From: Isoetes taiwanensis
Lineage: Eukaryota > Streptophyta > Lycopodiopsida > Isoetales > Isoetaceae
DNA length: 64,000 bases
Reading direction: 5' to 3'
NCBI GenBank assembly: GCA_021234155.1
Contig: JAJEKV010000030.1
Coordinates: forward strand, 15,428,003-15,492,002
Shown here: piece after piece, positions 4,323 to 33,713 of the stretch
Position numbering within the stretch: position 1 is the first letter of the stretch
Layout: each line of letters starts with the position of its first letter
The notes under the pieces: model-generated
The model's database searches: none
What the model saw: the letters and a program-made list of their open reading frames with translations, nothing else
What the model was told of the DNA's origin: nothing
Translations under genes and position numbers: made by a program

Positions 4323-4865
4323 CTAGCCCACAATGTCATACTCCCCATCCATGAGACGAGCATTGAACTGGATCTTGTCACCATCATGTTCAATCTCAAA
4401 CTGCACTCTAAAGGTAGTAACCTCTTTTCCAGTTCCAACCTGATCAACAGTTCCGACCAAACCGCCAAGATCATATTCACCAACATTTCTAATGTGATAA
4501 ACCTTAAGAGGACCTCTAACCCTAATCTTTTGCCCTACAACAGCCTTTGGTCCATAATCTATGATTTCTGGAGCTGGAGCTCTGCGTCTGTTTGGAGGCA
4601 CATAAACATCTCTGCCTTTTCTGGGTCCCATGCCACGGCCTTGCCCTTGCCCTTGCCCTTGCCCTTGCCCTTCCCCTTGCCCTTGGCCTTGGCCTTGGCC
4701 TTGCCATTGCCCTTGTTCCGGCGCAGGACCGTCTGTATTCATAGCCGCTACAAAGCGCAGGCTTTTAGAGCTCCGCAGTAAATTCGGCAGAAAAAAACGT
4801 GTGGCAAATGCAATGTGAAAAGAGTGTGGTGGTCGGAGTACCGTTGCTGCCGCTGCCATCGCCAT
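4323..4865 (-). CDS. FTRV: Ferredoxin:thioredoxin reductase variable (alpha) chain, plastid
   Basis: A 180-residue protein, the usual length of plant FTR variable chains. Residues 1-41 form a plausible plastid transit peptide (Ala/Ser/Arg/Phe-rich, no acidic residue). Residues 51-78 are a Gln-Gly repeat not typical of the family. Residues 107-180 form the SH3-like barrel: GQKIRVRGPLKVYHI at 111-125, YDLGGLVGTV at 131-140, VQFEIE near 154-159, then IQFNARLMDGEYDIV to the end. The variable chain caps and stabilises the catalytic 4Fe-4S subunit that passes electrons from ferredoxin to thioredoxins in the stroma. The loop between the two halves is shorter than in angiosperm homologues, which carry a WKGKRISANLP-type insert, so an early-diverging paralogue is possible. 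One exon; convergent with the complex I ferredoxin gene. Confidence 0.72.
   Translation of the reverse strand: MAMAAAATVLRPPHSFHIAFATRFFLPNLLRSSKSLRFVAAMNTDGPAPEQGQWQGQGQGQGQGEGQGQGQGQGQGRGMGPRKGRDVYVPPNRRRAPAPEIIDYGPKAVVGQKIRVRGPLKVYHIRNVGEYDLGGLVGTVDQVGTGKEVTTFRVQFEIEHDGDKIQFNARLMDGEYDIVG
4634..4716. repeat. Hexamer tandem repeat (CCCTTG/GCCTTG) inside the FTR variable-chain gene
   Basis: About 13 copies of a 6-bp unit that keep the frame and encode the (Gln-Gly)n tract between the transit peptide and the SH3-like domain on the minus strand. Confidence 0.8.
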
Positions 4866-5679
4866 AGCTCCAGCGAACTCAAAACCCCTTCAAAACCTAA
4901 AATATGAAAATGGTCGCTATACAGTAAAATAGTTCAACTTTTCGTCTTGTTGGACTCCATATATGTTTTGATGTGTTTTAATGTGGTAGTAGAGTCGTAT
5001 ATGAACCCAAAAATACTAACTCGTGATCCTGAGAGACTCGGACGACTCACATGATCCAGATATGTTTTGAATCCCATCACAAATACGCAAAACCCTTGCT
5101 ACAAAACCAACATTCTGCCAAGCTTGAGGGGACGTATCCAGACCAAGGATACCCAGCAGAGTAACTTGCCTCATCTCTTCTTTACTTCCACAATGCAACA
5201 TCTACATAGTCTAAAGTCTTACTCGACTATGAGATATCCTTCCAATCGGAGAAAGATATACGCTAAACTCTAACAACATAATCAAAATTCTGACCAAGGT
5301 TTATCCCCATACCAGATACACCTAGAGGAGTAGTCTATCTAGTACGTGAATTATGATGAAGGGCACTTATGACTTAGGTGCACACAAAAGGCCCATTCCA
5401 AAAAATAATGGATCAAGATTCACCAATCCCTACGTAGTAAAATGCCAATATGCGACACTTTTCCACCGTAGAAATTCGAGACCATGACTTGAGCCTACAA
5501 TACCCATGACCACATATAAGCTAAAATGACGAAGAGCATTATATGCTAGATAATACCCAAACTATCATGGGAATTGCAATATTGAACTCAATCTTGAAAC
5601 TAACATCTCTATCGCACCAATTCTGAATTGTCCTTTTACTACTATCTTCAGCCGCGCTATGTCATCTTTCTCAATTTGT
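4866..5679. other. Upstream region of the FTR variable-chain gene, no gene seen
   Basis: The proximal part should hold the minus-strand promoter. I find no clear TATA box or open frame. The distal part may be the decayed 3' end of the adjacent minus-strand gypsy fragment. Confidence 0.4.
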
Positions 5680-7940: not shown

Positions 7941-9464
7941 TGTGATGTTCCCCTAAAATATATGCCATACGTACGTATATTTTACGGACACGTCACCATA
8001 CATTTCTACATCCCTAGACATGTATACGACCAATGTGGGGGTAATGACTAAGTTATCTATAACTTAGCCAACCTAAGGTAAGAAGCCATTTCCACATGGC
8101 CTCACCTTATAGGCATACCGCCACATAGACGCACCTATAGGAGCCAAGTGGCACTCATGTAAACCCTAACATATAAAAGGCTAAACCCTAAACCGTAGCC
8201 ACTTTTGGCTCCACCAACCTCAGACCCACAAGTTCGCAATCGAGCTCAGGCTCAAGACCGCTCTTCGACTGACCCGGTTTGCGATACTTGATTACCCGAG
8301 ATGGAGAACTGTGGAATTAGCGTGAGCGTCAGGGGCAGGTATTTCGAATAGATTCCAGTATTGCAGTAGAGCCATTCTAGAACCTATTGTTCTGAACATG
8401 AACCCTAATCAATGAACCCTAACTATAGGTTAGATGTATGTGATTAGGATTAGTTGTTATTCTCTTTTATTATCAAGATTATGTTGATATGATCTTTGGT
8501 TGATCTTATGTTTGCACCTCTTGTGTATTGGGAAGGGGGTAGAGACTTAGTAGCCATTATTTAGAGGATGCTCCTAGTTTAGACCCATTAGTTCCCATTA
8601 ATATGCGGCTTTGTGCATAGAGCCCACCCGGCTCACGGGAGGCTATGGGAGGATCGAGCACCACACACAAGCGGGTCGGTGGCAAAGTGGAGGGAGGACC
8701 TTGCTGGCGGCCACGCATCTTGGGGTCCCATAGCGGGCTAGGCTCATAGTCGGTCACTTCGTATGGGCCGGGTATGGGTCCGACACTTCCTGGGTCAATG
8801 GTGTCACCCTGACTCTCAAGAGTTGCAAGTGTCGGCTTGGCTCTTGTTTTGGGGAGTTCAGTCGGGTATGGGCGTGTGTCGCCCGCGATCCTCTAGCCGC
8901 CCATGGAGCCATTTGCACCGGGAGGGGGGGAGATGCAACCTTTCCTACCTCATCGGACCAGGGAGATGCAACCCGGTGTAGTCTCGTTGGGTGATACCAT
9001 GGGATTACGTCTCCGGCAGGTTACAGTCACGTCAGAGCCTGATTTAGCTAGCCATTGTCTATTGCCAGCCCAAGTCATTGCCATAACTCGGTCTATTCTA
9101 TCTGGAGGCCCCCAGCCGTCAGTCGACTCCCCCTTGAGTCTGAGCCCTGGGTAAGAGCCTCTATTTGATGTATTTGATGCATTCATTGTATTGTTATATT
9201 TGATGACATGGTTAGATGGCTTATCACTACCCTTCGAGGTAGTTTATTGTTATTGTAGCTAGTGCTTATGTTGTATATTTTTGCTTCCGCTGACATAGGG
9301 ACCCCATAGAGGACGGGACGGAATGACACCTCTGTGTCCTCTACTCGATCGTCTGGACCCCAGATGCGAGTTAGACAGAGGACACATACAACGAGTGCCG
9401 TTGGATGGGGAAGGTCCTTCGTTGTATAGGGCGGGCTGTCGTATATAGCGCAAGGAGCGTCACA
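7941..9464 (+). mobile_element. Solo LTR of a Ty3/gypsy family related to the chromovirus
   Basis: A 1524-bp block starting TGTGATGTTCC and ending GCGTCACA, flanked on both sides by TTCAC (7936-7940 and 9465-9469). No internal region remains, as expected after LTR-LTR recombination. Its sequence resembles the chromovirus LTR (shared GGGGTAGAGAC, ATGCTCCTAG, AGAGCCCACC, CCGAATGACCCC-type words), but it is clearly a different subfamily. It interrupts the copia RNase H frame. Confidence 0.9.
8161..8192 (+). promoter_or_regulatory. TATA box with flanking teloboxes in the solo LTR
   Basis: TATAAAAG at 8172-8179 lies between two AAACCCTAA motifs (8161-8169 and 8183-8191). Two further AACCCTAA words occur at 8401 and 8415. 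This is the likely U3 promoter of the ancestral element. Confidence 0.5.
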
Positions 9465-9469
9465 TTCAC

Positions 9470-10102
9470 TAAGCTGACTGCAGCCTTATTATCATTCATG
9501 AGTACAGTAGGGGTTGCTTGTTCTGCACCAAGGGATTTCAGGAGCCTCCTTAGCCATATGGCTTCTTTACAAGCTGCACAAATTGCCATGTACTCTGACT
9601 CACATGAGCTAACTGTGGTTGCCTTCTGCTTTCTGCTGCTCCAGCTAACTACTCCCCCTTGCAGCTTGAAACAGAAGCCAGTGCGGGATTTTATGAGCAT
9701 GGTATCCCCTGCGTAATCTGCATCCACATATCCTTGGAGAACAGGAGAAGCATATGTTTTCTTATATGAAATGCCAAGGTTAGAAGTGGTGTGCAGGTAG
9801 TGAAGGAGCCGTTTCACAGCCTGCCAATGTGCTAACCCTGGATTCTCCATGAACTGACTATAAATTATAACACTTTCCGCAATATCAGGCCTGCTGCACA
9901 CCATGATGTGCATGAAGGAACCAACAATACTTCTATATGGGATGTCTTGAATTTGAGTCTTTTCTTCAGCAGTACTAAGACACATATCAAAGGTCAAATG
10001 ATTGGACACAGTAGGTGTACTTACCCCTCGAGGATGAATCATGTTGTACCTGGCAAGCAATGACTGAACAGCCTTATTCTAATGGAGAATGAGAGTGCCT
10101 GT
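9470..10102 (-). pseudogene. Copia RT end and RNase H, central part
   Basis: Encodes copia RNase H. Visible landmarks are YRSIVGSFMHIMVCSRPDI (the Y-R-x-x-V-G-x-L-x-Y-L-x-x-T-R-P-D region), YVDADYAGD, VSWSSRKQ, SSCESEYMA and WLRRLL. It is joined at 10102 to the RT half that now lies beyond 23406, and at 9469 to the C-terminal piece beyond the solo LTR. Removing the two insertions gives one continuous pol. Confidence 0.88.
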
Positions 10103-11771
10103 TGTGACGTTCCACGTATTTCTATGGTCTACGTCACGTATTTATACGGGACACGTACAAATACACCGACACGTCACCCATTAAAGGTACGCCACTAGGG
10201 GGTCCTATAACCTCAGGGGGTTACTCTAAAAAGGGATTAAATTAGCTATGCTAATTTAACACATTAAAGATAATAACCTATAACTTAGGAAATTAAGGAC
10301 TAAATAGGATTAATTAGACTATTTACTGTTTTGGGAAGGCGCCACCTGCCCCAATCGATTGGGGAGCATGGGGATTTCCAAATTAGGCTGTCAACCTGAT
10401 CCCTATCCCTGTGTTGACTCCCTCAATTCGGCCAAAGAAGGAGCAGGAGCTGAGCGCCATCATACCTATCAGAGCGCCACCATACCAAGTCGAACCTGTG
10501 AAGCAAAAGCGGAACCCTCAACTCCCAAGAGATGGAAGCACCCCATGGTAATGAGTCCAGCCAGAACTCAGGTGGGTGGCTAGGATAGTCGTGAATTCTA
10601 GATAACGCCCCTATTGGGCCTTGGTTGTGTTCGTTTCTCTGTTCTCTTTGTGTTTCAATCATAGGAACTAACCCTTGGTTGTAAAAGTAAGTTCTCTTTA
10701 TATTCGATTTCGGTTCTTGCTCCGAAAGGATGGATTGTTAGTTCTTTGTCTAGTCTTACTCAAAATGGGGGATTAGGGGTAGAGACCTCTGAGCCATGTA
10801 TTGTAGTATGCTCCTAGATAGCGCCCTGTAGAGTCCCATTAATTGCGGCCTGTGCACAAGAGCCCACCGGGTCCTAGATGCTATGGACTGGCTTAGCACG
10901 GCATAAGGAACACAGTGGTGAAGTGGGGGTGTGGTCTTGCACGCGAACATAAAAGGCTCCCGAGACTCCTCTGATTGGGCTAGGCCTAATAGCCGCCCGG
11001 CCCGAGCTAGGGCGCGAGCCGGGCAGGTATGGGTCCGACACTCCCTCGATCTGAGAGGTGTGACCCGCATGGGGCATCCTGTACTTTGAGTAGATTTAGG
11101 GTGAGTAAGTCGGAGATGTACGGATGCGGGGGTCGCTGATGCGGCACGTATTCTCTAGCTCACCCATGGAACCCCTGTGATTCGGAAGGGGCGCTTCCCG
11201 AGCCTGCCTCATCGGACCGGGAGTCATGAACACGAGTAGGCTCAAGGGTGATACCTTGAACTGCGTCTCCCGGGAAGGCTATAGCGAAGCCATAAGCGTG
11301 AATTGACCCATCCGCAAAGTGTGCAATGGGGGGGGATGGAGTGGACAACCCTAGCCGATGTTCTATGCCAGCCAACGCCATGCCAAGACTCGGTCTGCTG
11401 AACTCTTGAGTCCCAGCCGTCAGTCGATCCTCACTGGAGTCTGAGCCGGGGTAGAACCTGGGGTTTGGGCGTTTTCTTAGGTTTAGATGCATATTCTATG
11501 CCGTTGGTATTTGGATGGATGGGCCACCCTTCGTGGTGGTTATTTATATATATTTGTGTTGTGTGCTAACCCTTGTATTCATGCTTCCGCGACGTAGGAG
11601 TCCCATTGAAGGCGTGGGCCGAATGACCCCTTCGTGTCCTTCTTTCGGGCATCATTTCATAGATGGCCCGAAATAGACGGAGGGCCCTGCTCATGGTGAG
11701 ATGATCGCCATGGGAGGGGAAAGTCCCCGTATGTATACCTACGGGTCGTATATATTCGAGGGCGTCCGCGA
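10103..11771 (+). repeat. Chromovirus 5' LTR
   Basis: Starts TGTGACGTTCC and is highly similar to 21722-23401. Its first ~75 bases hold six ACGT cores. The last bases are diverged (GGCGTCCGCGA here, GGAGCGTCACA in the 3' LTR), so the right edge is uncertain by a few bases. Confidence 0.88.
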
Positions 11772-11783
11772 TGGTATCGAGCC
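11772..11783 (+). other. Chromovirus primer-binding site
   Basis: TGGTATCGAGCC immediately follows the 5' LTR. It matches the initiator-Met-tRNA PBS TGGTATCAGAGCC with one base missing. Confidence 0.75.
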
Positions 11784-12559
11784 GTGATTTGGTTGCTTTC
11801 GAAATCATAGCACTGGCCAAACACTAACTCGTAGCACGGTCGTTAGGAGGAGGCTAAGTCAATGTGTTGTTAGTCCTCTTTGATGTTTGGCTCGGTGTTA
11901 GGTTAAATTAAGAAAGTGTAGCTTTAAAGAGGATGGGGCGACTGGAGGGCCCAAGATTGGAAGCCTAGCAAGTGTCAGTAGGTAGCTCAAATGACGGAGA
12001 GGGTGGTTCCATTGGATCGGGCGTACTCGAATTACCTTAGAACAGTCGACTCTAGGCGAAAAATGGTCAAGGGCAGGCCCAGAAACCAACTCGGGCGCCG
12101 CTTGCCTTCTGTCGCTTTGTACTCATGGTAGAAGAGCTAGAAATGCCGCCGGGCCCGAGCCAGTCGGACCGAGTCAGCGCTGGCCCCCTTAGGTCAACCC
12201 GCTTGCTTTTCAACGACCCCGGTCGGCGGAAGCCGCGTATAATGCAGCGGGCCCGACCATCAGTATGCAGCAGCGTATTTCCGCCGTATAATTATTTTTT
12301 TAATAATAAAATTTTAAAGTTAATAAGAAAAATTTTTGAAATTTTAAAAGTTAACTGGCCGTTTAACAAAACTTTTCTTGTCATTTGCTTTTGCCTTGCC
12401 ATCGGCCTTGGCCGGTAGACCGTCTGAGCCAGCCGTCGCCATCGCCACCGGACGACCTTGTTCTTCCGCCCCTTGTGCCTTGCGAACCCTAAGCCTCCTT
12501 TGCCATCTCCCTTTGCGGAAACCTCCTGCTTCGACTTTGTAGACCTTAGTACTACCGCT
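11784..12559 (+). other. Chromovirus leader with AT-rich then pyrimidine-rich block
   Basis: No conserved frame. From about 12290 an AT-rich tract leads into a C/T-rich stretch that ends at the ATG of the first accessory frame, resembling a promoter plus 5' UTR of a captured gene. Confidence 0.4.
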
Positions 12560-13777
12560 ATGGCCAATACCAAGAGCGCCCCGGACCCATCTACTTTGAG
12601 CATCGTGGAGATTTACGCCATGATCGCCAAGCACATGGCTACAGACCCGGCCTTTATTGATATACTTCTGGATGAGCTCGTAAATAGGTTTGAGAACAAC
12701 GATAGGATTCCCTACCCTATCTATCACTTCTCCGAGCCATTTTTGATCCTTTGAACCTTCGCCCGACTCTCCTATACCATTGTTGAGCAACAACGACATG
12801 GTCATGATGCTCATTAAATTCTATCCTCCCGGCGGGGAAGGCCATGAGAGGAGGAAGATATCGGGACGAGGCCCGACCGTATCGGGGTTTGGCGGAGAGG
12901 ATGATCATAGGGAGATCGCCCGAGGCGGACACGGGCGGCCGTGGAAGGGAATACAGGTACCTCGGGGGCGGCTTTGCGGGTCATTGATGGCTTGAGCCAT
13001 TGAGGTTCCCCATCTGGATTGGCGGGAGGATCCAACAGGTTTTGTATGGGGAGAAATCCCCGATATCGGCATCGACTATCTGATAACCATTCAGATAGAC
13101 ATGGGTCTGCGACCACAGCGGTATCAAGCTGAACTTGATCGCCGCGGTGCAGCCTACCGCTTGTCCAGATCGTGAAGATCCGAGAGGGCCCGAAGAACGC
13201 GAAGCGTTAACAAGAGGAGCTGACCGGTAAGACCAGCGGAACCCCAACATGAAGGAGCCTGCCGGGGAGCCGGACCGGCCCAATCCCGACGATCGATCGT
13301 TAAGCACCGGAGAAGGGTCCAGCCCATAAGACCGGGTACAAGCATACAAAGAGAAATCAAGACCGCCGGGCTTTGGGAAGAAGACGAAGCCCGACCGGAG
13401 GCGTTAAGGCCGGGTGGATAGCTCCCGATCGTCTGCTGGGGCTAAGACGGTGCCAAGATCGACGGCCCGCCAGAAGCGGGGCACGAGGAAGCCCTCACAA
13501 AATGACTGATATCGCGTCTTTAAGGAAATCCGAAGTTCCGGTCTACAGCTCTTCCGACGAAGCTACCCTTCCGTAGGTCGGTACAGAGATCGCGCAGCAG
13601 TTCAAGACCAATCTCCGCTTCCAGACCTTTGCAATTTTGGCACTCCAAGAGGCTGCTGAAGCCTACTTGGTAGCACTTTTTGGTGACGCCAATCTTTGCG
13701 CGATCCACGCAAAGAGGGTCACCATAATGCCTAAGGATTTAGCCCTCGCCCGCAGGATTCGGGGGGAGCATCCTTAG
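12560..13777 (+). CDS. Chromovirus accessory ORF A with C-terminal histone H3-like domain
   Basis: Begins ATGGCCAATACC ([10 protein letters not shown]). An open stretch to about 12754 is followed by further open stretches in other frames (12755-12992, then 13001-13174), then a basic region rich in Lys, Arg, Pro and Gly, then an H3 fold ending at the stop 13775-13777. I recognise nothing before the H3 part. The first piece contains a plausible helical segment ([20 protein letters not shown]). Several stops and frame changes separate the pieces, so they may be one long protein damaged by indels or sequence error, or two adjacent genes. It lies between PBS and gag, where normal chromoviruses have no coding sequence. 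An AT-rich spacer with AATAAA follows the stop. Confidence 0.55.
13440..13777 (+). CDS. Histone H3-like domain within the chromovirus
   Basis: From 13586 to the stop at 13775-13777 a 63-codon frame reads as the H3 core: EIAQQFKT (alpha-N helix), [18 protein letters not shown] (alpha 2), [16 protein letters not shown] (loop 2), LARRIRGE, and it stops two residues later exactly where H3 stops. Just upstream, in the same or neighbouring frames, are matches to the tail and first helix ([14 protein letters not shown], a LREIR-like and a LPF-like segment). One base appears missing near 13530, and the CAGAGG expected near 13570 reads CGTAGG. The core is closer to canonical H3 than to CENH3; the tail is not canonical. 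Whether it is expressed is unknown. Confidence 0.88.
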
Positions 13778-13983
13778 CATATTCGCGGGGCTCCGCATTG
13801 TAAATATTTTCTTGTGATATTTAATAAAAAAAAAAAAAAACTTTTATTTTGTATTAAAAGTTTAATTATTTTATGTTAAAAAATAAAATAAAATGTTGAC
13901 GTCAGCCACAATAGCAAGGGTTAAAAAGGGACTTTTAACGTTATTTCAAATGTTTCTTCCCCTCTCTCCTCCCTTCTAGCGCC
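13778..13983 (+). promoter_or_regulatory. AT-rich spacer with poly(A)-like signal, TGACGTCA box and pyrimidine tract
   Basis: Contains TTTAATAAAA and an A-run just after the H3 stop, then TGACGTCA (about 13898-13905, a palindromic bZIP/CRE-type site), then a CT-rich tract ending CTAG four bases before the next ATG. It looks like a 3' end followed by a promoter or 5' UTR. Confidence 0.4.
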
Positions 13984-15380
13984 ATGGCTGCCGCCGACCT
14001 TGCCGCCTGGTACCATGATGGAGAGCAATGGGATCCGCAAGTCCCTTTCGACCTGCTGCAACCTTTGCTATGCCAACGCATAGATCTCCTCGCCAATATG
14101 CAGCGGCATCCGGATTACGCCGGATTCCTCGACTTCTACATGGAGGAAATGCTTCCTCTGTGTATTCCTCTTGGGGATCCTCCCCAGCTGTATTTGGAGC
14201 GGGAGGTAGTTCGGCAGATGTTAGGCGGGGACACCCATGCTTGATGTCCTGAAGGGGAAGCTCCGATGGGGTAAACACTTGCCGGTGGTCCAACATCAGG
14301 GGCGGCAACATCTGGAAGTTACTTTCGCCCTAGCCATCCTCCTGGACCAATACGTTGAGGATGAAACTTTGCCTGTAGAAAAAGGCAAACTGCCAGAGTC
14401 TTCCGAGGAGGGGGACGACGAGCACATAGGTATGGGCGACTTTGCCCGTTGGAAACAGTTAGCGGAGGAGTTGCCACCGCGCCGTGAACAAGCTATAGGC
14501 TTGTCAGGATTAGACGGCCTTCCAGTTATCTATCACCAAGGGCAGGAGTACCTTCTCTTGGATGATATTATCTGGACGTATCACATGGTGGCCGGATTTC
14601 GACGCAAGCGCAAAGACCATGTACTTTATGAGCTTGCGGAGTACTGTATGGACGATTTTATCGACTTCACTTCTACTGACCTTCCTCCAGAAGTGCAGCA
14701 GCTGCTCCAGTTCCGCCAGGAGACCATAGAGCCGGCAGAGACTCTATTACGTCTTCGGGACTTTGTGATGTAGGAGCCGGCCTCGCAGCCTTCACCAGAT
14801 GCCTTTACATATGGGACCTCACGTCCCAAACATCAACATAGTTGAGGTTCCCTCCGACTCAGATGACGAGGGAGAGGATTTATATCATAATCCTGCGCAT
14901 AAGAAGGAGGAGCAACAGGAACTCAAGGAGGAAGAAGTCCCCATGGACTTGGATAAGGAAGTGGCTACATCCGAGACCCCGCAAGGGAAGGTGCTGGGTA
15001 ACCACCTCACCCGTTTCTTTTTGTCAGCCTTCCGACAGGGGCAAGTCCTTTTTATAGCCCGAGATCTAGGGCCAGAGGCTGAAGCTTCATGGTGGGCCCT
15101 CCGTGCTCTTTCCACACTGGCCGGCCACAAGAAGCTTCCCTATCGTACGTTTACTTATGTACTCGTGCGACGGGATCTTGCCCTGACGGCCTTGGGTCAA
15201 GATATTGCGCCTTGGATGAGCATGAAGCTCCTCACGACAGCCCCATTGGCCGTTGCCTATCCACCGGAGGTTGCATCTGTTGCGGCTGCCACAGTAGACC
15301 CTGGGGTAACTCTGCTGCGACACCGACCGCCTCCACCACCTCCTAGGGCCACGGATGAAGAGGGAGGACCTAGCTCCTAG
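13984..15380 (+). CDS. Chromovirus accessory ORF B, unknown protein of about 465 residues
   Basis: Three overlapping or abutting frames (13984-14244, 14237-14773, 14799-15380) read as one protein with two frame changes. The first starts MAAADLAAWYHDGEQWDP in a good ATGG context and is rich in Leu, Asp, Glu and aromatic residues. The third has an INIVEV stretch next to SDSDDEGED, a SUMO-interaction-like arrangement, then a folded-looking segment (FFLSAFRQGQVLFIARDL, WWALRALSTLAGH) and a proline run near its end. I recognise no gag, env, protease or host domain. It follows the H3-carrying frame and precedes frame C and gag. Expression, possibly from the TGACGTCA-containing spacer, is inference. 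Confidence 0.6.
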
Positions 15381-15583
15381 ACTAATTGTGCTACGCATTT
15401 TTTTTATATATATGCGTGTGATTGTGGGATTTTGGATTGGCAAATGTTTTAGCCATGCTATAATATGATGTACCTTATTTCCTTATTAAATACAGTTACT
15501 GTCTTGATAAGTATGAGTGAATTGTTCTTTTCCATGACCTCCTCTTCAAAGCATTAAAGCTTAGAATATAGTGGAATCACAAA
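15381..15583 (+). other. AT-rich spacer between accessory frames B and C
   Basis: Contains a T-run, a TATATATA stretch and TTATTAAATA, resembling a plant 3' UTR. No open frame. Confidence 0.4.
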
Positions 15584-16073
15584 ATGTTCTCTATTCATTC
15601 CAACTATCTTGCAGAAGAAACCCTTTGGGAATATGAGGAGAGGATCACTGACATGGTGAGGAGGGATGATCCCGGACCGCCAGAGCAGGACTATGGCCAG
15701 AGATATGGTGAATATCCAGAGTGGGATGAAGGCTATGAGATCGAACCACCGCCACCAGGAGAACCCTATGATCCTGACAAAGGGCTGGAGATAGTTAAAC
15801 ATCCTTAGGGACAGAGCTTTCGAGGATCTGAAGATGACCCTGTGCCGTACCTGGGACTATTGGAATATGAGCAGACACGAGGCTTTCGAGGACGCCAACG
15901 ACCACCTTTGGCAACTCTTTTATGCTCTGCGAAGGCTTTTCAATCTTCTCATTGTCAGCCCAACATGGGAATACCAACCAGTGATTGTCCAAGCCTGGGC
16001 ACGCTATAAACTCGTTAGAGCTGTACGGGAGAGTACCCGCTACGCAATCCTATACCCCTTCGCGAACCCCTAA
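15584..16073 (+). CDS. Chromovirus accessory ORF C, acidic/aromatic protein
   Basis: Two pieces (15584-15808 and 15834-16073) join with a frame change to give about 160 residues. The first is acidic and rich in Tyr, Pro and Glu (EYEERITDMVRRD, PPPPGEPYDPDKG). The second is more hydrophobic and Trp/Arg-rich (RTWDYWNMSRHEAFEDANDH, YALRRLFNLLI). No family is recognised. It ends in an AT-rich spacer with AATGAAATAAAA (about 16211), a good plant polyadenylation-type signal, before gag. Confidence 0.5.
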
Positions 16074-16315
16074 GCTTGGTCTCTTCCGTTATGTTTTTCC
16101 GTTGTTGCCGTTACGCTATGTGCGAGTAAAACTTTAAAACTTCCACTGTATCATACCTCCTTTTTGTACCAACCCATGTATCAATCAACTTGTTGTTGTA
16201 CTCAACTTGAATGAAATAAAATATTAATTTCTGTTTGTATATTATCTTATCGCTATTAGCAAATGTTATCTTATAGGAATTGTACATTACTGTAAATCTG
16301 CTTATACTTTCATAA
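16074..16315 (+). other. AT-rich spacer before gag
   Basis: No frame. Contains an AATAAA-type element near 16215 and ends shortly before the gag ATG at 16316. Confidence 0.4.
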
Positions 16316-17500
16316 ATGCTCACTATAGACGGTGCACGTAACGCCGCTTGGCAAACACCCTCCAACGCCAGTAGGCTGACACCTGAACAGGAATTGATGT
16401 TAATGAAAAGGCAACTCGGCGAATTACAGGCCTATGTATTGCATACCAATCCACCGCAACAAACCCAGGAGGACGGAATTACCTCCGCGACCATTGAGTC
16501 CACCTGCACAACAGCCATCTCCCCCTAGAGCTAGCCCTGTACCTGTACCAAGGAGGACTCATGCTAAGCGTCACCGAAGTTCCTCTAAGGATAGCGCCAC
16601 TTCCTCACACTCAACCACTTCGGTGTCTTCTGGGTCATCGCTATCAGTTAGCGACCATGCAAAGCGTAAGGATAAGGAATACCGTAAAACCGTTGATACA
16701 GCCATAACTAGTATATGGAAGAACAGGAAGTTGGCTCAGTTTGATGGAAAATCGAGGCGGCTTGAATGCGAGAATCTGGTTGGGACGAGATGAAGGAGTT
16801 TGGAAAGTCCTATGGAATGACGGAGAAGGATCTGAGAAAAAGGTTGCCACCACCAACCTTACCGGAGCTGCCCGTATTTGGTGGAAGGGTTATGCCAGAG
16901 CCAAGCACCTGGACAGGAGCAGGTGCAAGTTCAAAAAGTTCGCCAAGGCTTTTAAATCGCATTACGTGCCTCGTGCGCACAAATGCCAACAGATCCAGAC
17001 CTTTACAGGTTAGAACAGAAGGGCATGTCCGTTCAGGCATACCTGATGAATTCATGCGCTGAGGTTGTATGTACGGGGATGAATGAAAAGAGGGCGGTGA
17101 GGGCTACATTGAAGGGTTGGCCCCATCCATTAAGCGAATGGTCAAGGCCATAGACCCAAAATCAATAGCTAGAAGCGGAGGCTAAGGCCTTAAGCCTCGA
17201 AGAGGACACACCAAGGAACCAGTATCCGCGACCTGCTCCTTACTCGCAGCCATGGCCGTCCACACCATATAAACCCCGCTCACCCAGTCCGGGGCCCTCT
17301 CGTGAGAACTCTTACGATTCGCCCGAAAAAAGAAAGTCGCCTTCAACATGCACGACAAAACCCACCAATGTTAGCAAGGAAGTTGAATGCAATTGCAGTC
17401 TATTCCCAAAGAGGCCGAGATCAGCTCACGTAAGGATAAGGCATGTTACGGTGTATGCGACCGGGCATTATATGCGAGAATTGCCCGTCGTCCAAAGCGC
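16316..17500 (+). pseudogene. Chromovirus gag
   Basis: The N-terminal part has a short coiled-coil-like helix (TPEQELMLMKRQLGELQAYV), then a Ser/Arg/His-rich linker. The capsid core near 16850-16985 shows the retrotransposon gag signature: A-x-x-W-W, then KFKKFAKAFKSHYVP. Near 17444-17490 a zinc-knuckle-like C-x-x-C...GHYMRE is visible only across a frame change. The frame changes several times, so as read gag is not intact. Gag would form the particle that packages element RNA. Confidence 0.75.
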
Positions 17501-17639
17501 CTAACTGGCCATGGCCGACCTTGATTGGGAAGATCACGGAGTCAATCGCTTTGTCGATGTGAAGCTCGAGTACATTCGCGGTCGCGTCTCATATTCTTGC
17601 CACTATTGAAACTGGCAACGCTGAAAGTCAGCCTTCTGT

Positions 17640-19667
17640 TATTTCTACAATAGGCCAAGTAGACAGTAAGCCTTTCATAATTTTGATGGATACGGGTAGT
17701 ACGCATAATTTTGCTTCTCCTAGAATGGCCGAATGCGCAGCTTGAAACGTTGAGATCCCGACCCTAAGCCCGATCCGTTAGCCCAGTGGTAAGATCAGAC
17801 ACACTCATGGCCGCCGCATTAACCTTAAGATGCAATTGCCAGGTGCGCCAGTTGCCTTGGGTGCCGAGTTAATGGACATTGGCAAATATGATCTTATTGT
17901 GGGTATGGAGTTTTTGGCATCTGCGAGGGCCAACATAGACTGCGAGAAATGGGAGGTTACCTTCAACGCCGCTAATGGAGCACGTGTAACGATAAAAGGT
18001 GATCCATTCCACTCTATTATGCAGTCTATGTCAATCAGGCAGTTAGAAAAAGCTATATGCAGGGATAAACTCCTTTGCCTCATTACACTTGCCTCCATTG
18101 AGTCTGACACCAAGCAGAAGAAGGAAATTGACACCTTGCCACAAAACGTTGCCACCCTTCTTCGAGAATTTAGCGATCTTTTTCCAGATGAGATCCACAA
18201 GCTTCCTCCTTTCAGAGGGGTAGAATGTGAGATAGCTCTAGAACCCGGTACTAAGCCTACCCAGCAAGGCCCCCGTGCAGAATGAGTCCTCGAGTTGGCG
18301 AGCTTAAGAAACAACTTCAAGAGTTACTAAACCTAGGTTTTATTCGGCCTAGTGTTTCACCATTTGGCGCTCCTATTCTTTTTGTCAAGAAGAAAGATGG
18401 CTCCCTGAGGATGTGTATTGATTACAGGCAGCTCAATAAGCATACCATCAAGAATCGCTATGCTTTGCCTAGGGCAGATGATCTCATGGACCAGTTACAA
18501 GGAGCCAAATATTTCTCAAAGATTGATTTACGCTCCGGGTACCATCAAATAAGGATAAAGGAGGAAGACATTCATAAGTCGCGCTTTTCGCACGGATATG
18601 GGCATTATGAGTTCACCGTCATGCCTTTTGGGTTAACCAATGCCCCCGCAACGTTCATGCGGTTGATGAATGACATCTTCCGCCAATACTTAGATGACTT
18701 TGTTGTTATTTTCTTTGACGACATTCTCATCTATAGTAAAACCTTGCAGCAACATGAACAACATCTTCGTTTGGCTTTGCAGAAGCTAAGGCGTCATCAG
18801 CTCTTCGCCAAGTTCTCCAAATGCAAGTTTGCCACTCCCAAGGTCGATTATTTGGGGCATATTATTTCAGCAGAGGGAATTGCTACCGATCCAGCCAAGA
18901 TTGAAGCAGTAAAGGATTGGCCTATTCCAGGTAATGTTTCAGAAGTCCGGAGTTTCTTGGGACTCGCAGGATATTATCGGAAATTTGTTAAAGATTTTGC
19001 AACAATTGCCGCACCTCTTACTAATCTCACAAAGCATGAGAAAGTGAAGGATTGGATGGAACATTGGAAAGCAAAAGTCCAAGTCGGCTTTCAGAAGCTC
19101 AAGGATGCTTTAACATCTGCACCAGTCCTCACTTTGCCTGATCCTGAAAAGGATAAATCGGTGGCCACTGATGCTAGTAAGATAGCTACCGGGGGAGTCT
19201 TAATGCAGGAGGGGAGAGTTGTTGCCTACGATTCAAAGAAGATGAATGACGCAGAGCAGCGATACCCTACCCATGATCAGGAGTTGTTGGCGGTGGTCCG
19301 CGCTCTCCGTATTTGGAGACACTACCTTCTCGGTAGAAGATTTCAGCTAGATACGGATCATCAGAGTCTCCGCTATCTATCCACCCAGCCAAATCTCAAT
19401 CTCCGTCAGAGAAGATGGATGGAATTCCTCGAGGAATACGACTTCGAGATTGTATACAAACCAGGGAAGCACAATGTGGTTGCGGATGCTTTATCACGTC
19501 ATCCTTTGATAACCCGAACCCATTGTAACGCCATTTCCACACTCACCAGCGAGTTTGGGAAACAGATAGAACAGACCCTCGCCACAGATCCCGAATTTTG
19601 TGATGTTTGGGGGAGTTTGAGTAAAGAAGCACGTCTGGATAAAGAAGCGAAGCTTCCGTTCATATAA
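17640..19667 (+). CDS. Chromovirus pol: protease, reverse transcriptase, RNase H
   Basis: The aspartic protease active site [12 protein letters not shown] lies at 17686-17721, before a frame change. The 17830-18285 frame is the protease-RT linker, and 18282-19667 is a long intact RT/RNase H frame. RT shows [19 protein letters not shown], a DLRSGYHQI block, [12 protein letters not shown] and the catalytic FFDDILIYS. RNase H shows [25 protein letters not shown] and TDHQSL. It ends [10 protein letters not shown] and then the connection to integrase, with an in-frame TAA at 19665-19667 after which the frame continues. The two RT/linker frames overlap by four bases, typical of a one-base indel. 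Confidence 0.92.
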
Positions 19668-20690
19668 GAGAGCGAGGGCAACTTATTATATCATAAGGAT
19701 AAGTTGTGTGTTCCGGAGACTTCAGGGGTGCGCAAGCTAATTCTCCATGACACACACAACAGCCCTATAGCGGGACATGCGGGTTTTATGAAAACTTACT
19801 TTAAGATCCGCTCCAGCTATTTTTGGCCTTCGATGAAGAAGGACATTGCCAGATACATTAAGCAGTGTCAGGTGTGTCAACAAACTAAAATTTGAACAAT
19901 TAAGAGTTCGGGAGAGTTGCAACCCTTGGATGTCCCTAGCGCCAAGTGGGAAGTAATAACCATGGACTTCATTGTGGGCCTTCCGCGTACTCTCGTGGAT
20001 ATGATGCATTAATGGTAGTGGTCGACAAATTGTCAAAGATGGCTCATTTCTTGCCATGTCGAACCACGGACCGCATGCTCGACACCGCCTTGCTATTTGC
20101 AAAAGAAATTTTCAGGTTGCCGCGGGATGCCAAGAGTAATTGTATCGGACGGGGATCCTAAGTTTGTAAGTGCATTGCGGAAAGACTTCTTCGCCACCAT
20201 CGGACCAAGCTTGCTATGAGTACGACTTATCATCCCTCAGACGGATGGTCGGACGAGCGTGTCAATCGTATTATCGAAGATATGCTCTGAAGCTATGTAT
20301 GGAGTAAAGCGGTCACAATGGGCGATTATATTTATTTGGTAGAGTTAGCTATAACTTGATCTGGCGAGGAGTCTTCCGGGATGTCTCCCTTCATGATAAA
20401 TTATGGCTATCAATGTCTTACTCCAGACACATGGCATAACCCTGTTTCTAAAGTGGAGGTCTCTCAACAACTCCTTTTAGAAATGCAGGCCTTGGTTGAA
20501 GAAGTTCGTGGTTACTTATTGGCAGTGCGCAGTCGTCAGAAAAGTCTAGCGGATAAACACCGAACTCCACGAGTTTTCCAGGTGGGCGAATCAGTTTGGC
20601 TTAAGATCAAAGTAAAACAAGCCAAGCTTAAAATTGGCAAGCGCAAGAAGTTGGCACCGGATGAAATTTGGGGCGTTCAAGATTACTGAA
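19668..20690 (+). pseudogene. Chromovirus integrase
   Basis: The N-terminal HHCC zinc domain is clear (H-x-x-x-x-x-x-x-H at HDTHNSPIAGH, then CQVCQQ). The core begins MDFIVGLP (first catalytic Asp) near 19962 and continues in broken frames through YDALMVVVDKLSKMAHFLPC, an IVSDGD-like segment near 20145 and a STTYHPSDG-type match near 20220. The C-terminal domain includes MSPFMINYGY and VGESVWLKIK. A TGA at 19893-19895 and at least three further frame changes break it. Confidence 0.85.
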
Positions 20691-21203
20691 CGTGTTGGTG
20701 AACAGGCATATCACTTAGACTTGCCGCCCCGCTTGAAGATCCACAAGGTCTTCCACGTGAGTCTTCTGAAGCAACACACCCCTGACCCAGAGGAGGTTTT
20801 GGATACTCCAACCCTCCTCGAAATGACTGAAGAGCAGCAGGAAATAGTGCCTGAAGCTCTTCTTGATCGAGCTTACAAACAGACCAGAAGGACTCAAATG
20901 TTACAGTACTTGGTCAAGTGGAAACACTTACCAGTTGAGGATGCTACCTGGGTGATGAAGATTGATCTTGAGAAGCACTATCCGGACTTCATGCGAGAAT
21001 CTCAAGGCCGCACTATCAACGATGCTATCAACCCCGCTCCCGGCGGTAAGCTTGAAGGCTTCAATTGCCGAGAATCATATTCTAGAGGGGTAGATACATC
21101 GTATCTTATAATAATAACCGATGATGAGATCACCTCTGTGTTCTCTAGGACGTGGTGTATTGTTGATGTTGACATGACCGTGCATTGCTTGGAAAGCATC
21201 TAG
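20691..21203 (+). CDS. Integrase C-terminus with chromodomain
   Basis: The frame has the usual gypsy integrase tail (YHLDLPPRLKIHKVFHVSLL) followed by a chromodomain: VPEALLDRAYKQT, then LQYLVKWKHLPVEDATWV and a terminal helix (DLEKHYPDF). This matches the chromodomain pattern of Y-L-V/I-K-W-K-G-x-x-x-x-x-x-T-W-E. Two aromatic-cage positions are visible (Tyr of LQYLVKW, Trp of VKW); the Glu usual after T-W is Val. Chromodomains in this position bind modified histone H3 tails and bias where the element integrates. Confidence 0.88.
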   Translation, partial: RVGEQAYHLDLPPRLKIHKVFHVSLLKQHTPDPEEVLDTPTLLEMTEEQQEIVPEALLDRAYKQTRRTQMLQYLVKWKHLPVEDATWVMKIDLEKHYPDFMRESQGRTINDAINPAPGGKLEGFNCRESYSRGVDTSYLIIITDDEITSVFSRTWCIVDVDMTVHCLESI

Positions 21204-21708
21204 TGGATAGACTGCGTTCATTTCGGCTATACAAGGAACTAAACCATTCCTTATGCCGCAATGAACTGCAAGCCATAGACATGATAGGTTCCTTTCTAAA
21301 TAGATTTTCTTTTATTTATAAGGGGGTGGTCCCTTCAACCACAATCTAATTATATTATTAATATACTGGTATATTGACATGTGCAGGCCAGTGAGCAGCT
21401 CGTGATCTGCCATGTATAGAGGGTTGCTGATGACCCAAGCTTCTCGCATTCGTTTTTGTTTACATGTGTCACTTTTGTTATCCATGATGTTTTCAAATCA
21501 GACTTTCCTCTGATGATAAGTTTGTATAAGGCACTTTGGGTGCTTGCACCTTGATATTTTCAACTTCAATGTATTACTGTCCGAAATGCTATATTTTCAA
21601 CGTATTAATGTTATATTATTAACCTTAGTCTGATACTTTTCTAATTGAGTTCTTTACGTATATGGTATTCGATTAACTAACCCCAATGCTGAGGACAGCA
21701 TTATTTTT
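21204..21708 (+). other. Chromovirus 3' untranslated region
   Basis: AT-rich, no frame, between the chromodomain stop and the polypurine tract. Confidence 0.6.
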
Positions 21709-21721
21709 AAGGAGGGGAGAA
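21709..21721 (+). other. Chromovirus polypurine tract
   Basis: AAGGAGGGGAGAA directly abuts the TG of the 3' LTR at 21722. Confidence 0.85.
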
Positions 21722-23401
21722 TGTGACGTTCCACGTATTTCTACGGTCTACGTCACGTATTTATACGGGACACGTACAAATACACCGACACGTCACCCAT
21801 TAAAGGTACGCCACTAGGGGGTCCTATAACCTCAGGGGGTTACTCTAAAAAGGGATTAAATTAGCTATGCTAATTTAACACATTAAAGATAATAACCTAT
21901 AACTTAGGAAATTAAGGACTAAATAGGATTAATTAGACTATTTACTGTTTTGGGAAGGCGCCACCTGCCCCAATCGATTGGGGAGCATGGGGATTTCCAA
22001 ATTAGGTCATCAACCCTGATCCCTATCCCCTGTGTTGACTCCCTCAATTCGCCAAAGAAGGGAGGGAGGTGAGCCATCATCATACCTATCGAGGCGCCAC
22101 CATACCAAGTCGAACACGTGAAGCAAAAGCGGAACCCTCAACTCCCAAGAGATGGAAGCACCCCATGGTAGCGAGTCCGTCCCGCGGGAACTTCGGGTGG
22201 GTGGCTAGGATAGTCGTGAATTCTAGATAACGCCCTATTGGGCCTTGGTTGTGTTCGTTTCTCTGTTCTCTTTGTGTTTCAATCATAGGAACTAACCCTT
22301 GGTTGTAAAAGTAAGTTCTCTTTATATTCGATTACGGTTCTTGCTCACGAAAGGATGGATTGTTAGTTCTTTGTCTAGTCTTACTCTCGAAATGGGGGAT
22401 TACAGGGGGGTAGAGACCTCGAGCCATGTATTGTAGTATGCTCCTAGATAGTGCCCCTGTAGAGTCCCATTAATTGCGGCACTGTGCACAAGAGCCCACC
22501 GGGTCCTAGATGCTATGGGTGGCTTAGCACCGGACAAAGGAACACGGTGGTGAAGTGGGGGTGGGGTCTCTACACGAACATAAAGGCTCTGAGACTCCTA
22601 CGATTGGGCTAGGCCTAATAGCCGGCCCGGTGAGCTAAGCCCGGCCGGTGGTATGGGTCCGACACTCCCGGGTACAGAGGTGTGACCCGCATGGGGCATC
22701 CCGTACTTTGAGTAGATTTAGGGTGAGTAAGTCGGAATGCGGATGCGGGGGTCACCGATGCGGCGACGTATTCTCTAGCTCACCCATGGAACCGGCGTGA
22801 TTACGGAAGGGGACGCTTCCCCAGGCACGCCTCATCGGACCGAGGAGTCATGAACTGGAGTAGGCTCAAAAGGGTGATACCTTGAACCTGCGTCTCCGGG
22901 AAGGCTATAGCGGGAAGCCATAGCGTGAATTGACCCATCTCGCAAAGTGTGCCTGGGAGGGGCGGATGGAGTGGACAACCCTAGCCGATGTTCTATGCCA
23001 GCCAACGCCATGCCAAGACTCGGTCTGGCTGAACTCTTGAGTCCCAGGCCGTCGGTCGATCCTCACCGAGTCCGAGTAGGGGTAGAACACGGGGTTTGGC
23101 GTTTTCTTAGGTTTAGATGCATATTCTATGCCGTTGGTATTTGGATGGATGCGCCACCCTTCGTGGTGGTTATTTATATATATTTGTGCTGTGTGCTAAC
23201 CCTTGTATTCATGCTTCCGCGACGTAGGAGTCCCATTGAAGGCGTGGGCCGAATGACCCCTTCGTGTCCTTCTTTCGGGCATCATTTCATAGATGGCCCG
23301 AAATAGACGGAGGGCCCTGCTCATGGTGAGATGATTGCCATGGGAGGGGAAAGTCCCCGTATGTATACGGCCGGGGTCGTATATATTCAGGGAGCGTCAC
23401 A
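21722..23401 (+). repeat. Chromovirus 3' LTR
   Basis: 1680 bp from TGTGACG to CGTCACA. Near-identical to the 5' LTR, with differences concentrated around CAG, CTG and CGG triplets rather than spread as C-to-T transitions. Confidence 0.92.
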
Positions 23402-23406
23402 CCTGT

Positions 23407-24470
23407 TGCCCTGTCTCATAGTTGTTGCATGCCCAAAAAGTACTTTAAAGGCCCCAAATCAGTCATATGGAACCTTTGTGTGAGGGAGTTCTTGGTCTGA
23501 GCCATGAGTAACTTTGAATTAGATGCCAAGATAAGGTCATCTACATAGAGTACCACAATTATGATCTCTGATCCAATACGTTTGGAGTTGATATTCCAAT
23601 ATGCATCACTGCGCTCAAACCCTTGGGCAGTGAAGAAGGCATATATGGTTTTATACCAAAGCTTGGGAGACTGTCGTAAGCCATATATGGCTTTGTTGAG
23701 TTTGCAAACCTTGGCAGCATTGTTTGGTTTAACAAATCCTGGTGGTTGCTTCAAATAGACTTCCTCGTCAATGACGGACTTCACATCCATTTGCTGCAAA
23801 TCTAAATCAAGAGCTGCAGCCAATGCCAGCACAACACAAACAGAGGTAAGACGAGCAACAGGGGCAAACGTTTTCTGGTAGTCAACACCTGCAGTTTGCG
23901 AGCAGCCCCTAGCTACCGGTCGAGCTTTGTACCTAGTAATCACATTATTCTCATCAAATTTTAACTTGTAAATCCACTTACAAGTTATTGCTCGCCTTCC
24001 AATTGGCAGATCACAAAGATCCCAAGTGTAATTGTCAATCAGGGATGCGTACTCCTCCTCCATGGCTTGCAGCCACAAGTTTTTGTCTGAGCTTTTCATT
24101 GCCTCCATGTATGAGCTGGGTCCTTCCTCAGAAGCATTACTATGCAGGGTCAGATATGCTGCTCCCTTTTGACTCCTACTGTTGAGATAGTCCTGCATTC
24201 TCTCATTAGGCATTTTAGGCCTGGAAGATCTCCTCGGCTCCAAGGACACAGCTGCATCAACATCCCCTTCAGTATCTCCCTCCTCACCTGCAAATTCTAG
24301 TTCTGAAGGGACGTGAAGATCATCACGTAGAGTGTTTGAGATGTCCATTTCATTGTCACTGTCAGAGTCACTGGAGTCTGCAGTGTTTTCAGCAGGCTCT
24401 TGATCAAATGGATCAAATTCAGGCGGGTTCTGGAACTGGCCAATGCTAAAGTCTTGTTCTTAAAAAACAA
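23407..24470 (-). pseudogene. Copia reverse transcriptase
   Basis: The 23416-24348 frame reads as copia RT: WKWIYKLK-type (TCKWIYKLKFDE), YKARPVARG, TFAPVARLTS, LQQMDVKSV, EEVYLKQPPGF, KAIYGLRQSPKLWY, VVLYVDDL and TDLGPLKYFLGM. The normal block between MDVKS and EEVY (AFLNGxLD) is shortened here by about five residues, an internal deletion. The frame is cut by the chromovirus at 23407 and continues at 10102. Confidence 0.9.
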
Positions 24471-25664
24471 CACTTCTTCGAACCATTCTCCTTGTGGCAG
24501 GAACATATAGTTTGTAGCCTTTACTGGTGTCTCCATATCCTATAAACATATAAGGGACTGCTCTGGCAGAAGTTTTGCCTCCCCTCCTTTCTTCTTTGGA
24601 TACACGTGCATAAGCTGTGCACCCAAGAATTTTGAAGTCTTTTACATTAGGCTTGTGGCCAGTCCAAATGGTTTCTGGTACTCCATCAGGGCGAGCTTTA
24701 GTGGGAACCCTATTAAGAATGTAAGCAGTGGTGTGAATGGCCTCTGCCCAAAACTTATGATCAATTCCTTTTGACAGCAGCATGGACCTTGCACAATCAA
24801 GCACGGTTCTATTTTTGAGCTCCACAACACCATTCTGTTGATGTTCATGGGTGATTGACGTCGCATGACGTATGCCAAAGCTCATTAGAAATTCAGAAAA
24901 CTCATCACTTGTGAATTCGCCTCCCTGATCTGTTCTTAATGTCTTTATAGTCTTGTTAGTGAAGTTTTCAACCAACAATTTCCACTATTTAAAATACTCA
25001 AAGGAGTCTGATTTGAATACCATAAAGTACATCCAATTTTCCTGGAAAAATCATCAATGAGCAACAGAAAATACCTTGAGCCATCACGAGCTGGACCCCA
25101 TAGATCCATGTGTACAAGCTCGAAGGGGTGATTTGCTATAGTGCCCTTGCTTTTGTGGTATGGTTTTCTGCTGAGTTTTCCCAAAGCGCAGCCCTCACAA
25201 ACTCCTGCAGGTGCCTGGATCTTTGGTAGAACATGCACAAACTTTTGCTCCCTCATTTTCTTTAAGAACTGAAAAATGGCATGTCCTAGTCTCTCGTGCC
25301 AAATTTGGTGCTCATTTGTTGAGGCAACACTTAATGCAGTGGACTGTTTCGTGTACCAGCTCAGTTTGTAAAAGCCTCCATCTCGTTCTCCTTTAGCTAG
25401 TACATGGTGTTGCTTGTCACTCACTACGCATTGTCTATTGCCAAAAGTAGCAAATAGATTAGCATCATCCATTTTTGAAATAGAAATGAGGTTTGCCTCT
25501 AGATCTGGCACAAACAAGGTGTTCTTGAGCTGTACATTCCCTATTGGTAGCTTTAGAACCACAACATCGACATCTCGAATATTCAACTTCCCCTTACCAA
25601 TTTTGACTTGCTTGTTCCCAGCCAGCAGCTCCAATTGTCTTAACAATTTCTTGTTGCCAGTCAT
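24471..25664 (-). pseudogene. Copia integrase
   Basis: Contains the pre-integrase zinc domain (HERLGHA...CEGCALGK), the core starting MDLWGPA, DDFSRK, TDQGGEFTSDEF, the G-I-x-H match GIRHATS, the HQQNGVVEL match to P-Q-Q-N-G-V-x-E, and the C-terminal FKILGCTAY / GYGDTSKGYKLY segment. It is split over two frames (24460-24978 and 24945-25664). Confidence 0.9.
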
Positions 25665-25740
25665 GTGTGATCACTGGCACCTGAGTCTAAGTACCAGGTT
25701 CCTTGTCCCATTTCAGCAAGCAAACCCATGGAATTTAGCA
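25665..25740 (-). pseudogene. Copia protease active-site remnant
   Basis: Minus-strand WYLDSGASDH, the copia aspartic protease signature, lies at about 25669-25700 and changes frame before joining MTGNKK at the start of the next open frame. Confidence 0.75.
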
Positions 25741-27209: not shown

Positions 27210-28115
27210 GATAATTTTAGAGCCATTCTATGCGCTTTAGGTGCTAATTCCGATGGAGGTATAAGCCTCTTTGTCTTCATTCTCTGATTTGCTCCTCACC
27301 ATCATGGAATATGTGGAATATGATTTGCTCAACGAAGAAAGTGCTTATTGTGATGTGAAGTCTAAGGTAGAGATGGAAAGTATCGTATCCACACTTCTTC
27401 ATCCCTGTTGCAAACTCCGGGAGCTTGAGCTTGAGCTTGAGCTTATATTTGGTTATGATATGGATGGAGCGGAAGTTGCAAGAATACTTGCCACGGCCAT
27501 TCAAAGCCCCATTGCAAACTCCGGGAGCTTAAGCTTGAGCTATCTGTTTCAATGGATGATCTGGATAGAGCAGAAGCTGCAGAAATGATTGCCACGGCCA
27601 TTGAGAGTGAGAAATGCAATCTCCACAGCTTGAATTTGCATAATTGGGGCAGCTTGGATTGGGGATATTTCCAAGTTGCTGGGTGCCTGGCTAAATCCCT
27701 TGAAAGCCCCAATTGCCATTTGGAGAGTTTTGGTCTGATATATAGTCATTTAAGATCAGAAGGCACCAAGAGCCTGGCTGAAGCCCTTCAAAGCCCCAAT
27801 TGCCATTTGAAGACGTTGGATCTGCAAGGAAATAAGATAGGATCAGATGGCATCAAGAGCCTGAGTAAAGCCCTTCAAAGCCCCAATTGCCATTTGAAGA
27901 CTTTGGCTCTGGGATTTAATTGGATAAGATCAGACGGCATCAAGAGCCTGGTCAAAGCCCTTGAAAGCGAGAATTGCCATCTGATGAGCTTGGATTTGTG
28001 GGATAATACTGTAGGAATGAGCGGCGTTGAGGCCCTGGCAAAGTTTCTTGAAAGGAAAAGTTGTCGTTTTGAATTCTTGGATCTAAGACGGAACAAAGAC
28101 GACATACAATGGTGA
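27210..28115 (+). pseudogene. Ribonuclease-inhibitor-type LRR gene fragment
   Basis: About seven leucine-rich repeats of ~28 residues. Several repeat units carry near-identical words (ALQSPNCHLKTL, SDGIKSL), the pattern of ribonuclease-inhibitor/NLRC3-like LRR proteins. The first ATG that keeps the frame is at 27304. The repeats then shift frame near 27510, where one base appears missing from the repeated GCCCCAATTGC word, and continue to a stop at 28113-28115. No NB-ARC, kinase or membrane segment is visible. The copia element lies just upstream and may have separated it from its 5' part. It could be a decayed gene or a live one with a sequence error. Confidence 0.6.
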
Positions 28116-30930: not shown

Positions 30931-31121
30931 CTCAATTTTCCGATGCCTTCTTTGGTAATTTTGACTTTGAGGAGTAATCTTGATCTTCTTCTTCTTGATC
31001 TTCTTTCTTGTTGATAGGATCCTCTCTCAATTCATCCTTCCTTTCCTTTTTGGTAAAATTTCATTGTTCCTTCTATTCTGCTTTTTCCCAATTTGCCTTT
31101 GTTGTTTTCTCCTGCTCGCCT

Positions 31122-33672: not shown

Positions 33673-33713
33673 TTTGGTTTCCCTATCTCTCTTCTTATGT
33701 TTGGATCATCATC

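Follow-up and report, generated by a model that had tools for sequence, protein, structure and literature searches.

A Ty3/gypsy chromovirus family of Isoetes taiwanensis carries a histone H3 fusion gene with signs of purifying selection

Whether a histone H3 sequence lying inside an LTR retrotransposon is a stray piece of a host gene or a gene of the element itself, and what a retrotransposon might do with it, is the question raised by a 64-kb stretch of the Isoetes taiwanensis genome (contig JAJEKV010000030.1, positions 15,428,003–15,492,002; hereafter ‘the window’, to which coordinates refer). Genes for core histones have been described in cells and in some DNA viruses. In the window, a Ty3/gypsy element of ~13.3 kb (10103–23401) is bordered by copia-like sequence on both sides; two extra ORFs, ORFa and ORFb, both broken in this copy, stand between its 5′ LTR and gag. 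The features of the element are:

10098–10102, no strand: target site duplication CCTGT, left copy
10103–11766, plus strand: 5′ LTR, starting TGTGACG (right end approximate, last bases changed)
11772–11783, plus strand: primer-binding-site-like sequence, TGGTATCGAGCC
12560–13777, plus strand: ORFa, decayed in the window, a ~300-aa N-terminal region plus H3 core
13480–13777, plus strand: histone H3 core region (start approximate; open end 13577–13774; stop 13775–13777)
13984–15380, plus strand: ORFb (MAAADL...), the second novel ORF, broken in the window
16840–16998, plus strand: gag domain (Retrotrans_gag), Pfam match
17842–17976, plus strand: aspartyl protease (RVP_2), Pfam match
18384–18866, plus strand: reverse transcriptase (RVT_1), Pfam match
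19140–19439, plus strand: RNase H (RT_RNaseH), Pfam match
19728–19889, plus strand: integrase zinc-binding domain (Integrase_H2C2), Pfam match
20847–20993, plus strand: chromodomain, Pfam match (PF00385, E 1.9e-08)
21722–23401, plus strand: 3′ LTR, ending CGTCACA
23402–23406, no strand: target site duplication CCTGT, right copy

LTRs, a target duplication (perfect, 5 bp), gag and the PR-RT-RH-INT order identify the element as a Ty3/gypsy chromovirus, the matched domains running gag, protease, RT, RNase H, integrase zinc-binding, chromodomain. The LTRs measure 1664 (right end approximate) and 1680 bases, with a K2P distance of 0.086 between them, and the primer binding site is presumably of the initiator tRNA-Met type. 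Only the zinc-binding and C-terminal parts of the integrase were matched; its catalytic core gave no Pfam match in the scanned pieces of this decayed copy. The chromodomain, at the integrase C-terminus, is without the first and third cage aromatics (judged by eye), as in group II as described in sections of PMC3350952. ORFb, directly 3′ of ORFa and 5′ of gag, is as long as 466 aa in other copies; none of its scanned pieces matched Pfam, and at E 0.001 the piece from the window had no relative among 140 protein database candidates with common short words. Immediately downstream of the element is a minus-strand Ty1/copia element (23416–25670; RVT_2, GAG-pre-integrase), and upstream is minus-strand sequence at 9371–10078 that is copia-like by eye, with no Pfam match; the H3-bearing element has apparently inserted into this copia element.

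The initial annotation, made from the window alone, had described an H3 core in a frame that stops where H3 stops, and this was confirmed: positions 13577–13774 encode 66 aa that match Pfam Histone (E 3.7e-23) and PDB H3 chains (E ~1e-28) and share the end point of H3. Frameshift-tolerant alignment of 13000–13900 to H3 scored 287, whereas 30 base shuffles reached at most 38. H3 homology extends 5′ of the open frame but is interrupted there by frameshifts and a stop, which marks the window copy as decayed. The H3 sequence is thus real and part of the element, but the earlier reading was limited to the end of a longer gene, which in intact copies comprises ~300 aa plus H3. The LTRs with their perfect CCTGT duplication and the presence of H3 in other family copies strongly support the domain as part of the element. 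As to its claimed place between LTR/PBS and gag, H3 does lie upstream of gag, but the ORF that directly follows it, from 13984, is not canonical gag but ORFb, the gag domain being at 16840–16998.

The genome (1,658,258,908 bases, 1110 contigs) contains many such elements. A search with the 66 H3 residues returned at least 150 matches of 94–100% identity, the window copy included, and 40 of the 150 listed had open frames of at least 400 codons (counted by eye). With canonical H3 as query, 15 host-type H3 genes (97–99% identity) and at least 135 further matches at ≤87% were found. The first 40 copies were taken for the similarity of their H3 protein, half of this set also for long frames, and in these copies the parts followed the order of the window element: LTR in 39/40, leader, N-terminal region and H3 in 40/40, ORFb start in 39/40 and ORFb second part in 38/40. 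An intact ORFa protein of 407–420 aa was present in 20/20 copies chosen for long frames; in the other 20, frames were broken or shorter. Over the ORF, the two closest intact copies differed by 2.1% of nucleotides and the median pair by 17.9%. A search with ORFb likewise gave at least 150 matches, and 20 copies spread through this match list, excluding those already taken via H3, had H3 upstream of ORFb in every case (tblastn, E ≤0.001). Many of these H3s were frameshifted, one showed the last 18 residues alone, and three were scrambled. These copies were not chosen by H3. We regard H3 as a standing component of the element family, and the decayed copies as old insertions. A single-copy chance insertion, against which a check for other H3-bearing family members had been proposed at the outset, is therefore not borne out.

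Intact ORFa proteins consist of ~290–300 aa without known domain followed by H3 from PHRY to the end. The H3 of an intact copy matched PF00125 at E 2.5e-40 and PDB H3.3 at E 4.8e-51, the H3 histone fold and αN sequence being present, and the cores are identical to host H3.3 at 81–86 of 98 residues. The canonical N-terminal tail with K4, K9 and K27 is absent and ~300 aa stand in its place, the first residues alone being H3-like; from after these to approximately residue 36, the H3 tail is missing in 20 intact copies. The sequence just before the core and the beginning of the core are basic: residues 241–330 of copy L012, of which the last ~18 belong to H3, carry a net charge of +18. Among 2846 candidates with common short words from a 5.8-billion protein database, the N-terminal region had no relative at E 0.001, and against PDB, Pfam and NCBIfam it gave weak scattered matches at most. 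Its origin as a duplicate of ORFb was also rejected (hhalign probability 0.4%).

Conservation of the core is extensive. Host-identical residues number 68/98 in all 20 intact copies, always including C110, H113, R116, D123, L126, R129, I130, K64, K115, K122, R72 and R83, and 60/98 when five divergent copies are added, including R40, R72, R83, K64, K115 and K122, which we take to be contact residues. C110, H113, R116, D123, L126, R129 and I130, presumably important for the H3-H3 bundle, are unchanged also across all 25 copies. Substitutions at positions of DNA contact or in the core occur in single intact copies (R49W, K56N, R63K, R69K, K79R), and several carry R42K. The α2 chaperone site reads FAIL in intact copies (FAIS in one), HAIL in the divergent copies L061 and L065 and LGVL in L063, as against HAVL, SAVL or TAVL in host H3s; residue 87 is H in the host H3.3-like gene L049 and in L061 and L065, F in 20/20 intact copies, and L in L063. 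CENH3, which has a divergent fold and longer loop 1, can be ruled out, as the element H3 aligns gaplessly to canonical H3 through the fold.

Among the 20 intact copies (190 pairs), dN/dS was 0.118 in the N-terminal region (mean dS 0.88) and 0.032 in H3 (mean dS 0.58), compared with 0.023 among host H3 genes (12 fetched of 15). Because copies were picked by H3 similarity and long frames, low dN is favoured in the last 63 H3 codons (columns 36–98, dN/dS 0.021); H3 columns 1–35, outside the copy-picking query, gave 0.051. In the ORFb-selected, partly decayed copies, dN/dS was 0.172 (16 of 20 used, three scrambled copies and one of <40 codons being dropped, and codons of broken copies being taken from separate frame pieces), which is above the intact copies, as would be expected if neutral decay since insertion contributes to the value. 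Differences at first, second and third codon positions were 0.117/0.096/0.338 in the N-terminal region and 0.042/0.014/0.264 in H3, third positions dominating in both. Uniformly neutral decay had been named beforehand as the outcome that would argue against function, and the intact copies are not decaying neutrally. ORFa is almost certainly, on these comparisons, an H3 fusion whose protein sequence has been held by purifying selection, although such selection leaves open which molecular function would have been kept.

As for the origin of the gene, comparison of the element H3 with 12 of the 15 host H3 genes showed synonymous sites to be saturated, with dN of 0.10–0.14. A nucleotide tree split the host H3s from 25 element H3s with support 0.991, and a protein tree that also took in 100 public H3s (those with an H3 start motif among the 120 best database matches listed) placed the 25 element H3s in one clade, support 0.927 (L062 left out of both trees). 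Amino acid changes were nested: A107 and L124 are common to L063 and the rest, L061 and L065 have gained T86, I89, A102 and G105 besides, and F54, F87 and A125 come in with the main family. Given saturated synonymous sites and a single clade, we read the data as pointing to one old H3 capture that would have been followed by stepwise change and kept by selection. The donor was probably of H3.3 type, as pointed to, though not proved, by H87 in L061 and L065. N-terminal identity to the main family was 67–79% in L064, 33–37% in L065 and 28–31% in L061; in L063 the region was found as pieces at 28–41%, and in L066 as the last ~25 residues alone. Two other routes were rejected. After a recent gene capture (transduplication), the element H3 should differ little at synonymous sites from some host gene, and dS is saturated against the 12 host genes compared. 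As to a processed pseudogene with a poly(A) scar, A-runs of ≥7 within 200 bases after H3 occurred in only 13/40 copies, at varying places, so there is no fixed scar.

The extreme N-terminus may preserve a trace of the capture. In the divergent copy L065 (G000:C914, oriented 561–1469) the ORF starts MARTK, as does H3; the protein starts are MARTKGTKSYAT in L065, MARTKQTARKST in H3, and MA[N/I/H/Q]TKSAPDPST or near in the main family. Over the first 14 residues L065 had 7 matches to H3, the 20 intact copies 3–6 and L061 3. None of 1321 ATG frames (all loci) outside the ORFa family and host H3 reached 6 matches; 9 unrelated ATG frames, three of them ORFb starts, reached 5, the frames not being independent of one another. 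This is suggestive of a start codon that is H3's own and of a novel region inserted within the H3 tail. The H3-like start rests mainly on the divergent copy L065; such an insertion is the simplest reading, but the H3 tip may instead have been mimicked under selection, or the likeness may be due to chance.

The nearest parallel is the single H3 genes of some DNA viruses, of which sections of PMC9145170 describe those of Manila clam xenomavirus, Dishui Lake phycodnavirus and sylvanvirus. There, viral single H3s are 73–87% identical in the fold, have tails 35–68 residues longer in three of six, carry SAIL or TAIL among others at the α2 chaperone site, and come with no other histone; for all six, nucleosome formation together with host histones was considered likely (PMC9145170). 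Both they and ORFa, compared here as genes alone, are one host-derived H3 with an altered α2 chaperone site and, in ORFa and three of the six viral genes, a longer N terminus. Unlike them, the element H3 is carried by a high-copy LTR retrotransposon, its extension of ~290–300 aa is conserved, and its dS from host H3 is saturated. The bracovirus histone CvBV-H4, a host histone with extended tail, is described there as recovered in host nucleosomes, although it is an H4, carried by a wasp polydnavirus rather than a retroelement, and its acquisition is put at 17 million years (PMC9145170). Plant LTR retrotransposons with additional ORFs or captured domains resemble the present family in having an extra conserved ORF or domain in sense orientation in Ty3/gypsy (PMC7264820, PMC9289625), although, in PMC7264820, the additional ORFs lie mostly between pol and the 3′ LTR, unlike ORFa. 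The chromovirus chromodomain, proposed to guide integration, is likewise a chromatin-related module of the same elements; whereas it reads histones, here the element also supplies one (PMC3350952, in part).

How might such a protein serve the element? We propose that a Ty3/gypsy chromovirus lineage captured a host H3 gene, probably of H3.3 type, probably once and long ago, and that the captured H3 became an accessory protein with a conserved ~300-aa region in place of the tail and a nearly intact core. This core would pair with host H4, host chaperones would put the protein into nucleosomes, and the nucleosomal core would anchor the N-terminal region on chromatin, where, alongside the chromodomain, it could act as a tether for the pre-integration complex or RNP. 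To this explanation as a whole, in which pairing, incorporation and anchoring are inferred, we assign a probability of about 0.5. Its parts differ in strength. Entry of the ORFa protein into nucleosomes is, judged from sequence, reasonably probable: a tail-swapped nucleosomal H3 is favoured because core residues are kept and viral single H3s are judged nucleosome-forming, although a 300-aa extension could hinder nucleosome assembly. That tethering of element complexes is the purpose of ORFa is a more tentative proposal. A bolder version, doubtful at present, sees a ‘parasite histone’, in which a new domain inside the H3 tail would have produced a tail-swapped H3, long kept, in host nucleosomes; with such a histone the element could mark chromatin, hold it or release it from silencing.

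Other uses of the gene are less likely. One is anti-silencing, in which tail-less protein on element chromatin or fresh cDNA would dilute the methylatable H3 by which plants keep transposons silent. Absence of the canonical tail (K9, K27) in 20 intact copies with the nucleosome core kept is as such a role would have it, but simple tail loss would suffice, leaving ~300 aa conserved at dN/dS 0.118 unexplained, and we consider this unlikely. A decoy, the core binding H4 or chaperones outside nucleosomes and so disturbing host chromatin assembly, might account for the several fixed changes from host at 86–89 (the chaperone site) and 102–107; it has no need of the DNA-contact arginines and αN residues, most of which are conserved, and appears improbable. 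Packaging, in which the core would condense element cDNA or RNA in virus-like particles or the pre-integration complex, is very unlikely: wrapping of DNA would not be expected from an H3 that has no H4 as partner, and Pfam scans of window pieces revealed no other histone in the element, even if the basic stretch leading into the core would suit the role and some DNA viruses encode histones for which, in some, packaging has been suggested (sections of PMC9145170). Finally, a recent passenger, that is, a functionless host H3 copy trapped in one or few elements, finds an echo in the broken state of the window copy and many others but is refuted by copy prevalence (40/40 H3-selected and 20/20 ORFb-selected copies), purifying selection, saturated dS from host H3, a separate clade and the want of a fixed poly(A) scar.

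A literature search of open-licence papers, in which absence is not proof, found no retrotransposon-encoded core histone described. The word ‘retrotransposon’ is absent from the main text of the viral-histone review (PMC9145170), ‘histone’ from the review of additional ORFs (PMC7264820) and from the main texts of two Isoetes genome papers (one of them PMC8566536), and no histone-fold domain is named in the section on extra domains of PMC9289625, a screen of LTR retrotransposons in 121 angiosperm genomes, non-seed plants not being among them, in which 15 such domains were frequent. Among the best 120 of 7999 matches to an H3 query of the protein database (8000 candidates scored) there was no retroelement name; the names were those of H3s, H3 fusions and unnamed proteins, many being incomplete or missing. 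As far as sequence comparison goes, purifying selection maintains a fusion gene with a histone H3 core in this retrotransposon family; the identity of the gene is solid, and the mechanism is our proposal. Such an element would supply a nucleosome part besides reading histones via its chromodomain, and it would make testable the action of mobile elements on chromatin, the function of an H3 with a 300-aa tail, and the resistance of retroelements to tail-based silencing in non-seed plants.

Elsewhere in the window, a plus-strand LINE (30999–37589) encodes endonuclease and RT in long open frames, its first ORF being DUF4283-like, below the curated cut-off. A plus-strand leucine-rich-repeat ORF of 218 aa (LRR_6) lies at 27459–28115. 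The minus-strand ORF at 4323–4889 is possibly a host gene; it resembles the variable chain of ferredoxin-thioredoxin reductase, though weakly and at a score slightly under the curated cut-off. A plus-strand reverse transcriptase fragment at 46847–47698 (RVT_1, E 3.4e-08) is perhaps another decayed LINE.
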